Below, piece by piece: positions 2,534 through 6,029 of a stretch of DNA of 21,972 nt. Within the stretch, counting starts at the first letter, position 1, and each line of letters starts with the position of its first letter. The stretch is taken from positions 1 to 21,972 of the IMG/VR virus record IMGVR_UViG_3300000318_000088, one strand, 5' to 3'. The translations under genes were made by a program, and so were the position numbers. The notes beneath the pieces are model-generated. The model ran no database searches. It worked only from the letters and a program-made list of their open reading frames with translations, and had not been told where the DNA came from. This DNA is from a virus.

Positions 2534-3754
2534 TTATGAAAAATTAGGGACCTTAACTGTGCCGATTGTTCTTCTATTCAGCAAATCATGAGACCAGAAC
2601 GGAATTATTTTAACTCCGCCATCATCCTGCAAACGATTAATCTGAATTTCAAAAGCGCCCCACGTCGCTACAATAATTTCGGATGGATCAATAATAGACA
2701 GTGTATTCGCCGGCATTTGTTTTGTAGCAAAAGACGCTCTAGATATTAGTCCGTCTTTATCCCATAGTTTGGCAACTTGCCCTGCTTCTATTTTTCTTTT
2801 ACGTAATGCGCCTTTAACAAGCGGGGTTGTCAAAAATATAGCTTTATCAAGGTCGACATTAGCATCTTCTAACATCGTTTCTAGATCGACCGCTGAGTCA
2901 AAACCGAAATTAGCGCCGTCATAAATCCTAACGCCATTTCCATTTAATAACCCCATTATTTCTATATCACCGCCAGCTCCCTGTATCATAGCCAAATCAG
3001 ATCGTAATTTTATCTGATTGATTATATCATTCATCACGATTCCTTCCATTTCCGGAGTTGTTTGTAAAGCCGTTTGCCGCGAATATTTTACAAGACCAGA
3101 GGCAGTTTTTGGCGTCATAATATCAGACCCGAAATTAATTTCGCTTTCTGTCGCTACACCGCCCTCGCCAATATAAAATCCTTGCGAACTTGACGTTTTT
3201 CTTGGAAATTCTAAATTCCCGACAACACCGCTAATCATTTGACCATTTAGGATGTTACCGATAACCATTTTATTATATAACAGATCTAAAAAATTTCCAG
3301 TCATTAACTGTGTGGCAACTAATTTATCCGCAGTGCCTGTGCCGATCGTTATTTCTCTTTTGAGATAATCATGCGCTATATAACGTCCGCGTGGGGCAAC
3401 GCCCATCCTTTTCTCGATTTCGTTTGAAGCCTCTATCTCTACCCCTGCAAGCGATGGATCTCCATGATATTCAGCGCGTACTAGGTTCCAGATGTTGTAT
3501 CTTTTTAGATCGCTTTTGGGCATATCTAAATCTGAAACCGGCGGAGCATATTGTTCTTTCTTACCGAGGCGTGTAACAATTTCTCCGTTCATTCTTTCAA
3601 TTGACCAACCTTCGTCTTGAGCTTTTTCGCTCAAACTATCTACATCTGCAATTCGTCCATTGAATTGCTTTGCTATTGCCCTTATCTCTTTGCGTCTATC
3701 TAAATCCGCTCTAAGAATTTGTTCAGGCGTTTGCTGGGTTTCATCTCCTGGCAT
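2534..3754 (-). CDS. Nested capsid product from an internal in-frame start
   Basis: At residue 231 of the fusion there is an ATG (MPGDETQQ) preceded by AAGGAGG with a 5-base spacer. This is a better ribosome binding site than the one for the full-length protein. Initiation here would give a 406-residue product with the delta segment and the capsid domain but no protease. It would supply many capsid subunits per protease-bearing subunit, in the same way that lambda makes Nu3 from inside gene C. The site sits exactly at the end of the polar linker, at the domain boundary. This is inference from sequence. Expression has not been shown. Confidence 0.7.
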   Translation of the reverse strand: MPGDETQQTPEQILRADLDRRKEIRAIAKQFNGRIADVDSLSEKAQDEGWSIERMNGEIVTRLGKKEQYAPPVSDLDMPKSDLKRYNIWNLVRAEYHGDPSLAGVEIEASNEIEKRMGVAPRGRYIAHDYLKREITIGTGTADKLVATQLMTGNFLDLLYNKMVIGNILNGQMISGVVGNLEFPRKTSSSQGFYIGEGGVATESEINFGSDIMTPKTASGLVKYSRQTALQTTPEMEGIVMNDIINQIKLRSDLAMIQGAGGDIEIMGLLNGNGVRIYDGANFGFDSAVDLETMLEDANVDLDKAIFLTTPLVKGALRKRKIEAGQVAKLWDKDGLISRASFATKQMPANTLSIIDPSEIIVATWGAFEIQINRLQDDGGVKIIPFWSHDLLNRRTIGTVKVPNFS

Positions 3755-4444
3755 TTCAGCCTCCTTTTTTATTGTTATTGTTGAACTATTTTTATTTTCA
3801 GTTTCGTTTGTTTGCTGCGCTTTTTGCGCAATGAGTTCCTGCAACTTTTTCATAAGCTCTTCATCAATTACTCCTTTGCCTAACAACGCATTTTTATCGG
3901 CGCCGACTGGCGTAAGTGATTCTTCCTTAGGCGTCCATTTTGTTCTTACAAAAAGATCAAGTCCGTCAGCGAATATATTTGCTATCTCTTTATTGCCAAA
4001 AAACATTTGCTTTGCGCCTGGAGGAAGTACTATTGTATATTCGTCATAGGTCTGGTATCCTACTGAAAGACCGCGCAAATGCCCTTCCTTCGCAAGAGTA
4101 AGTTCGGGTTCTGCTATAGTAGAAAATGTTAAATCGCCTCTTAAATTTGAGCCATCAACTTTTATATTATGCACAGAACCTTTTATATTAGTTGCGACAG
4201 CTCCATATCTGTTATGGTTATCAAGCAAAGGCAAATAATCATCCGGAGGAAGTTCGCATCCTTCCATTAATAATACTTCGCGTATTAATTCGCATCGGTT
4301 CCAGTCAAAAACTATTGCCGGTTCTTCTGTCGTAAGAATGCCGGAAATGGTCCTGTTTTTTTCGTCAATATTCTGCGGCGCAATTGCAGCGGATCTTGAT
4401 ACCCAGCCAATATGTTCTGCATCTTTATTTTTTTTATTAGGCAT
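2534..4444 (-). CDS. Fused HK97-type prohead protease and major capsid protein
   Basis: This 636-residue protein joins two functions that most phages encode separately. Residues 10-200 resemble the HK97-family prohead protease (U35 type), with candidate catalytic His77 in LLDNHNR and Ser127 in LRGLSVGY. Residues 205-230 are a polar, Asn/Thr-rich linker. Residues 231-305 look like a delta or scaffolding segment, and residues from about 310 form an HK97-fold capsid domain, with features such as GGVATESEINFG and a C-terminal VATWGAFEIQINRLQ stretch. I chose the ATG at 4444 and not the in-frame start at 4489: it overlaps the portal stop by ATGCCTAA and has AAAGG upstream. A second strong start lies inside the gene at 3754. 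The protein should cleave the delta region during shell maturation. Confidence 0.88.
   Translation of the reverse strand: MPNKKNKDAEHIGWVSRSAAIAPQNIDEKNRTISGILTTEEPAIVFDWNRCELIREVLLMEGCELPPDDYLPLLDNHNRYGAVATNIKGSVHNIKVDGSNLRGDLTFSTIAEPELTLAKEGHLRGLSVGYQTYDEYTIVLPPGAKQMFFGNKEIANIFADGLDLFVRTKWTPKEESLTPVGADKNALLGKGVIDEELMKKLQELIAQKAQQTNETENKNSSTITIKKEAEMPGDETQQTPEQILRADLDRRKEIRAIAKQFNGRIADVDSLSEKAQDEGWSIERMNGEIVTRLGKKEQYAPPVSDLDMPKSDLKRYNIWNLVRAEYHGDPSLAGVEIEASNEIEKRMGVAPRGRYIAHDYLKREITIGTGTADKLVATQLMTGNFLDLLYNKMVIGNILNGQMISGVVGNLEFPRKTSSSQGFYIGEGGVATESEINFGSDIMTPKTASGLVKYSRQTALQTTPEMEGIVMNDIINQIKLRSDLAMIQGAGGDIEIMGLLNGNGVRIYDGANFGFDSAVDLETMLEDANVDLDKAIFLTTPLVKGALRKRKIEAGQVAKLWDKDGLISRASFATKQMPANTLSIIDPSEIIVATWGAFEIQINRLQDDGGVKIIPFWSHDLLNRRTIGTVKVPNFS
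3754..3766 (-). promoter_or_regulatory. Strong internal Shine-Dalgarno within the capsid fusion gene
   Basis: On the minus strand AAGGAGG (3766-3760) is followed by five bases and an in-frame ATG (3754-3752). It matches the anti-Shine-Dalgarno perfectly. It lies in coding sequence, where such a match is normally avoided, at the junction between protease and capsid domains. Confidence 0.75.
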
Positions 4445-6029
4445 TTTGTTTACCTTTACCCTTTTTGTTATTTGTTTGTTCGTCTGCAAATGCGGCGTCT
4501 GGTATTACTACGTCGCCAAATGCAAGCCCTCTTGCGTCCATCATTTGTTTTTCTTTTTGTAGTTGATCGAGATGCTCTTCGAGATCGACCCCCTTAGTAG
4601 CCAGATATTCCTCAAGAGAATCCATGCCAACGCTTATGCCAAGTTTCCATGCAGATTTATCTTTTAGCGGATCCACCCAATCGCCTTTGTGTCCATAAAA
4701 TACAGGGGCATTAAACTTATCGAACTTAACAATAGGCAGCGCTACGCTGTCATTTTTGAAGTACCCGTTGAGTATGGCAGATTCAAGAAAGTCCTTAAAT
4801 GAAGGTTCCAATAAATCTTCCCGCAGATCCGTTTGCTGATCGGAATACCCAAGACGGCTATCGAGTAATCCATGCCGTATTGAAGTATAATTAACGTCGC
4901 TTAGATCGCTTGATAATGTTGGATAGTCAATATCTCCCATACCGGACGCTATTTCTTTTGTAACACGGGCGGTATATTGCTCATATTCATTTTGAGGGTA
5001 TGCGGGATCATAAGGGACGGCCTCATAACCTTCAGGAACGATATAAGTTTCGCCGGGCGAGACGTTTTGATAAATTACTTCTTCGCCTGCTTCTATGCCT
5101 TCTTCGCCTGCTATATCTGGGTCTATGGTTTCGGTTACTGTATCGGTTCTACGCTGTAGCATTAGCACTTTACATGCTGCCGATTTAGCATTGTTCAAAG
5201 CATTATCCTGATATGCCTTTAGATTATATAATCTATTACCTATTGCGACTAACTGAGTAACGCCTCGCAACTGGCCTATATATTCGCGGTTGAATAAATG
5301 ATAAATCTGATCAGCAGAAATACGTTGATATTCTTTCCGGATTGGCATTGGCGACATCTCGTCTTCGATCTTATATGAAGTAAACCAGTATGCAACCTTG
5401 CGCTGATTGGCATCAAGCTCAACGCCCATGCAGATTATATTTCCATTAGGCAGCTTTTTATTAAGCGTTTCGTCAAGCAAAGTCGCGTCGATTGGCTGTA
5501 GCGCATAACCAAACGGATTTATATTCTTACTTGTATATACTTTTTTAAGAAATACTTCGCCGTCAATAAACTTTGCGCGGATGATTAATTTTAATAATTG
5601 CCTTAGAGTTAAATCCTGCCTGATTGTGCAATACTGCTTGCGGGTCCAAAGCCAATAAGCGTCTTGAATTATTTTATTTGCAAGGTCGTCATATTCTTTT
5701 CCCCATTTGCCGTCTTTGTCTTTAACGTAACTAAATGCTTTATTTCTTAACACAAATCCTTCCGGACCAACAATATTCTTTTCAAATGTGCGAAGCGCTT
5801 TTTTTATAAGAGGATCGTTCTGTGCAAGTTCCCGCGCTTTTGCGCGTATGCTTGCAAGCCCCATTCTTATATCCCAATTGTAATTATTACGCGAGCCAAA
5901 GAATCCGGCAGATAAACGCGATGAATGAGCCATTTCATAAGCGCGCTTATTTATTTTTTTTATTCCAGTAGCAGTTGTTTTTATAAAACTATTGCGGAAT
6001 GAAGTCGCTATATTGCTGAATAACCCCAT
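4437..6029 (-). CDS. Phage portal protein, lambda gpB family
   Basis: The 530 residues match the usual length of lambda-type portals, which form the dodecameric DNA channel at one capsid vertex. Family-typical stretches are visible. Near the N-terminus RAKARELAQNDPLIKKAL leads into NIVGPEGF (about residues 63-95). A central IYHLFNREYIGQLRGVT follows, then EIASGMGDIDYPTLSSDLS and NYTSIRHGLLDSR. The C-terminal DWVDPLKDKSAW and MDSLEEYLATKGVD segments are also typical. The start overlaps the gpW-like gene's stop by TAATG, with AGAGG upstream, and the stop overlaps the capsid fusion start. The gene order connector, portal, protease/capsid agrees with lambda W-B-C-E. Confidence 0.92.
   Translation of the reverse strand: MGLFSNIATSFRNSFIKTTATGIKKINKRAYEMAHSSRLSAGFFGSRNNYNWDIRMGLASIRAKARELAQNDPLIKKALRTFEKNIVGPEGFVLRNKAFSYVKDKDGKWGKEYDDLANKIIQDAYWLWTRKQYCTIRQDLTLRQLLKLIIRAKFIDGEVFLKKVYTSKNINPFGYALQPIDATLLDETLNKKLPNGNIICMGVELDANQRKVAYWFTSYKIEDEMSPMPIRKEYQRISADQIYHLFNREYIGQLRGVTQLVAIGNRLYNLKAYQDNALNNAKSAACKVLMLQRRTDTVTETIDPDIAGEEGIEAGEEVIYQNVSPGETYIVPEGYEAVPYDPAYPQNEYEQYTARVTKEIASGMGDIDYPTLSSDLSDVNYTSIRHGLLDSRLGYSDQQTDLREDLLEPSFKDFLESAILNGYFKNDSVALPIVKFDKFNAPVFYGHKGDWVDPLKDKSAWKLGISVGMDSLEEYLATKGVDLEEHLDQLQKEKQMMDARGLAFGDVVIPDAAFADEQTNNKKGKGKQNA

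Follow-up and report, generated by a model that had tools for sequence, protein, structure and literature searches.

The window, a stretch of 21,972 nucleotides of DNA, belongs to a prophage that lies on contig C2 in a bacterial genome of 4.17 Mb. On the minus strand, a gpA-type terminase gene and a lambda-family portal gene are followed by a fusion gene of 636 codons, which is single-copy in that genome (Table 1). A single-protein scan of viral contigs found no close relatives of the window prophage. The fusion gene carries protease, delta and capsid in one ORF, the arrangement of an S78 prohead protease/HK97 capsid fusion.

Table 1. The fusion gene and its nested start, in window coordinates.
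Feature	Position	Strand	Evidence
Protease-delta-major capsid fusion gene, 636 aa, ATG at 4444	2534..4444	-	ORF; PF05065 capsid E 6.7e-12; PHROG_617 E 2e-63
Weak Shine-Dalgarno AAAGGT before the start of the full-length fusion	4452..4457	-	Duplex energy -6.2 to -6.5
Prohead protease domain (S78-like), about residues 25-190	3875..4372	-	PF04586 matches in homologues; invariant H77 and S127; ordered in AlphaFold
Disordered linker, residues 211-235, containing the nested start	3740..3814	-	AlphaFold pLDDT < 50; next helix from residue 240
Nested Shine-Dalgarno AAGGAGG	3760..3766	-	Sequence; -11.6 kcal/mol; counterpart in 89/105 non-redundant fusions
Nested start codon ATG (Met231 in the fusion)	3752..3754	-	Sequence; in-frame ATG at the junction in 103/105 fusions
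Nested ORF for a delta-capsid protein of 406 aa, predicted to be the main precursor of the capsid	2534..3754	-	Translation; capsid candidate starts of unfused relatives give about 370-460 aa
Delta/scaffold domain, helical, about residues 231-371, removal expected on maturation	3332..3754	-	Helices 240-360, disordered 364-384; alignment with the R4C virion chain starts near residue 372
HK97-fold capsid domain, about residues 372-636	2537..3331	-	PF05065; 8gta R4C capsid E 3.5e-20; Foldseek top matches 8gta and HK97

The domains were assigned using profile searches and structure prediction. The match to PHROG_617 ('major head protein') is full-length, residues 24-605 aligning with 19-586 of 626. 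The NCBIfam model NF045541 (scaf_prot_MCP2) reached 91.1 bits (E 6.5e-26) over residues 26-301 only, short of its curated cut-off of 525 bits; the window fusion is a relative of NF045541 and not a member under its cut-off. PF04586 (Peptidase_S78) was matched by 8/15 aligned homologues and not by the window protein itself, and H77 and S127, the latter the predicted catalytic serine, are invariant across 39 sequences. The AlphaFold model, built on a 39-sequence alignment (mean pLDDT 80), gave an ordered protease, a disordered linker, the delta helices, a second disordered stretch and the capsid domain. Met231 lies within the linker, 9 residues ahead of the first delta helix. In the solved structure of the R4C virion the capsid chain begins at residue 362 of a 629-aa gene product, so the modelled mature shell protein lacks everything ahead of that residue, the nested N terminus included. 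Because the delta region is expected to be removed, mature virions are unsuited to reveal the nested N terminus by mass spectrometry.

At the junction of protease and capsid the preliminary description had placed an AAGGAGG followed, after 5 nt, by an in-frame ATG, which proved exact to the base. Read on the minus strand, the Shine-Dalgarno (SD) motif (3766-3760), the spacer CTGAA (3759-3755) and the ATG (3754-3752) stand in the context ...CAATAAAAAAGGAGGCTGAA-ATG-CCAGGAGATGAA... The ATG is in frame with the 636-aa ORF that runs from 4444 to the stop at 2534, and the 406-aa translation begins MPGDETQQ. It had also been claimed that the full gene has a weaker ribosome binding site than the nested start. 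For the window gene this is true: the SD:anti-SD duplex is -11.6 kcal/mol at the nested ATG, top among all 30 in-frame ATG, GTG and TTG codons of the fusion gene, versus -6.2 to -6.5 kcal/mol at the full-gene ATG. Only two of the 743 ATGs in the window (both strands, all frames) reach -11.6, the nested ATG and a gene start at 2249. The latter belongs to a head-operon gene (2249 to 1764, minus strand) with the SD AAAGGAGGG at -12.1 kcal/mol, which exceeds the nested SD; its product, unmatched in Pfam, has a signal-peptide-like N terminus. A search of the host assembly for the 16S rRNA 3' end found none, and the anti-SD was taken as canonical. In a search for the 16S end among the genomes of four family members only one (G007) matched, and the match examined was not a 16S end.

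Relatives were drawn from phage records, genomes of the same order and the same phylum, genomes of the species, and viral contigs. HMMs built for each of the two domains identified 272 fused ORFs, of which 105 were left after clustering at 60% identity. The junction was defined as about 62 codons, and an SD was counted if its duplex energy before an in-frame ATG was E≤-5.3. The preliminary description had named homologous fusions lacking both the Met and the SD as evidence against a nested start; both are present in 89/105 non-redundant (<60% identical) fusions (about 85%). At least one in-frame ATG occurs in 103/105 junctions (98%) and exactly one in 67, and ATG density is not raised. The named members carrying the nested SD and ATG include VP882, R4C, RcRhea, ep3, PT1, PPpW-3 and CRP-811. 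An SD of the counted strength before the ATG is missing in 16/105 fusions and the junction ATG itself in 2/105. Three fusions, L009 (S-LBS1), L110 and L153, keep the in-frame ATG without an SD; they may initiate independently of an SD or may have lost the nested start. In L257 and L291 the junction start codon is GTG after a good SD (GAGGA and AAGGAG, respectively), and GTG was excluded from the 89/105. The S78-type fusion of Salmonella phage PT1 (L015, 1763-3811) is annotated 'protease C / scaffold Nu3', even though the protein ends in the capsid domain.

Two controls were applied to the same genes. Among 895 other in-frame windows of equal length, 15.8% carry an ATG with an SD, and the junction itself gives 15.2% in frame +1 and 1.0% in frame +2. 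With a stricter SD (E≤-8.5) the figures are 28.6% versus 1.0%. An out-of-frame small gene at the junction was discarded, as neither alternative frame exceeds the in-frame background. P, S or T follows the nested Met in 54/89 cases and other internal Mets in 235/1408, and the nested residue 2 looks like that of a genuine N terminus.

Linkers rich in Lys and Glu and in A could yield AAGGAG-like codons near a Met as a by-product of their composition. Amino acids alone do predict about 49/105, and most of the SDs share one codon phase (64/20/5). When codons were shuffled synonymously with the amino acids and ATGs held fixed, 48.7±3.8 were expected (maximum 60 of 300) versus the 89 observed. The same DNA read in frames +1 and +2 gives only 15% and 1%, and composition leaves aside both the P/S/T enrichment at residue 2 and the conservation of synonymous sites at the junction. 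The composition reading is contradicted by the synonymous-codon and frame controls and we regard it as extremely improbable; chance was discarded by the frame, position and synonymous-codon controls.

Synonymous sites at the junction are unusually conserved. Using 62 independent pairs, synonymous codon identity was 0.83 at codons -9 to +3 and 0.63 far away, with a 95% interval of 0.16-0.24 for the difference, and the sliding-window maximum for the whole gene fell on codons -6 to 0 around the nested ATG. A bias from choosing the best ATG was discarded, since the effect persists with single-ATG junctions alone: there, synonymous identity is 0.80 versus 0.64 around other conserved internal ATGs, while amino-acid identity is 0.63 versus 0.85. 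The peak of synonymous-site conservation coincides with the lowest amino-acid identity. RNA structure also drops exactly at the nested start, where the mean 40-nt folding energy goes from about -9 to about -4 kcal/mol, although amino-acid composition explains much of this change (-5.2 in synonymous shuffles versus -4.2 observed).

Unfused relatives are present in the same bacterial order and phylum, and their capsid candidate starts mostly give proteins of about 370-460 aa, similar in length to the 406-aa nested product. In one of them (L031) the capsid ATG lies 1 nt past the protease stop and its SD lies within the end of the protease gene. Judged from these sequences, removal of a stop and joining of the frames would yield the present layout with the old capsid start retained. 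The nested start might then be a fossil, an SD and ATG inherited from the old capsid gene when the intervening stop was lost and no longer used. The part of this explanation that concerns origin is likely right, as the unfused locus has its capsid start at the matching place. A dead signal would decay, and the SD and ATG are kept by fusions <60% identical while nearby linker residues diverge, at the synonymous sites that are the most conserved of the gene. Disuse of the start is therefore very unlikely in our judgment.

The preliminary description had gone on to derive a low ratio of protease to capsid from the stronger nested ribosome binding site. The difference in strength stands for the window gene; across the family the median SD energies are -6.6 for the nested start and -6.3 for the best full-gene start, and the nested SD is the stronger one in 52/93 fusions. 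A stronger nested site as a family-wide rule was tested and is unsupported, and the ratio itself is inferred. That the full-gene SD is not generally weaker than the nested one would suit a different scheme, in which the protease-to-capsid ratio is fixed mostly post-translationally: every chain is made as the fusion, cleavage at the linker then releases the protease, and the internal SD serves only to cause pausing or to aid domain folding. The linker is disordered and the enzyme is a protease, which makes self-cleavage plausible. A pausing role has no need of an in-frame ATG 4-9 nt downstream, nor of start-like second residues or open RNA structure at that ATG, and we give this scheme little credence.

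A second type of fusion, with a ClpP-type protease, was examined using a search seeded with a Pseudomonas phage fusion. An in-frame ATG with an SD was present at the protease/scaffold junction in 12/12 representatives, a small set of Pseudomonas MD8/F10-like and Klebsiella prophages with conserved amino-acid context. The synonymous null is 5.8±1.6, and 0 of 500 shuffles reach 12. An NF045540 search of the phylum returned mostly host ClpP and zero fusions. At two loci (L313/L341 in G509 and L314/L347 in G452) capsids related to the family have genes of their own, downstream of a ClpP-type protease gene that is likewise unfused, an arrangement which suggests that protease modules were swapped ahead of one type of capsid.

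About 415 capsid subunits are required to build a T=7 shell, and R4C has 415 (PMC10276861). Made from the fusion alone, such a shell would bring in one protease per capsid subunit, a stoichiometry puzzle that the conserved internal start would resolve. Very probably one frame encodes two proteins, the 636-aa fusion and, by nested initiation, the 406-aa delta-capsid protein, with the fusion carrying the protease into the procapsid. That both products could be made, as had been proposed for the window gene, is supported by the Met and SD kept in homologous fusions. Initiation at 4444 would give the protease-delta-capsid fusion in minor or comparable amount. Initiation at the internal SD and ATG (3766-3752) would give the protein without protease, most likely the bulk supply. 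Driven by its delta domain, the 406-aa protein would assemble into procapsids, and the fusion would co-assemble with it via identical delta and capsid parts, so that the protease enters covalently. After assembly the protease would strip delta from all subunits, leaving a shell protein of roughly 265 aa. This scheme builds on what the sequences show, namely the signals, their nucleotide-level conservation, the arrangement of domains and the recurrence of the layout in two families of fusions that are unrelated; from these we infer ribosome initiation at the nested ATG, the protease:capsid ratio and the co-assembly step.

We think it likely that, across a very large set of tailed phages and prophages, the main shell protein is something other than the annotated protease-capsid fusion, and that this arose independently in two fusion families whose proteases are unrelated. 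Translation of the true major capsid protein would begin at a hidden start codon in the same frame, with the fusion acting as a covalent protease-packaging vehicle, a phage counterpart of Gag/Gag-Pol. For annotation, the internal start would then mark the beginning of the major capsid protein in VP882-, R4C- and MD8-like phages. It would also offer a simple and genetically tractable case of protease cis-packaging, with the same solution found with S78-like and ClpP-type proteases.

The VP882-, R4C- and MD8-like protease/major-capsid fusions (NF045541, NF045540) have the same architecture as the window gene; in MD8 the protease, scaffold and capsid protein are encoded by one gene (PMC8508860). 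No mention of an internal start in protease/major-capsid fusions was found in the open-access literature searched. Fusion and lambda-type nesting were already known; the major capsid protein itself as the nested product was not found in that literature and would be the new element. HK97 gp4 (protease) and gp5 (delta-capsid) show the same module order of S78 protease, delta and HK97-fold capsid, in two genes there and in a single reading frame here. Lambda C/Nu3 and Mu I/Z each yield a protease-free protein from an in-frame internal start, situated close to where the protease domain ends; this protein has its C-terminal part in common with the protease protein. The parallel with lambda C/Nu3 drawn in the preliminary description holds at the sequence level, as the window gene has an in-frame internal SD and start codon after its protease domain. 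The proteases of lambda and Mu are ClpP-like, whereas that of the window is S78-like, and their nested product is scaffold only, with the capsid protein encoded by a separate gene, whereas the nested ORF of the window comprises delta/scaffold and the whole capsid domain. In herpesvirus UL26/UL26.5 and retroviral Gag/Gag-Pol, a minor protease-bearing form co-assembles with an excess of a protease-free form sharing its sequence. Those systems use a nested transcript or frameshifting where the window gene has an internal SD, and UL26.5 is scaffold only.
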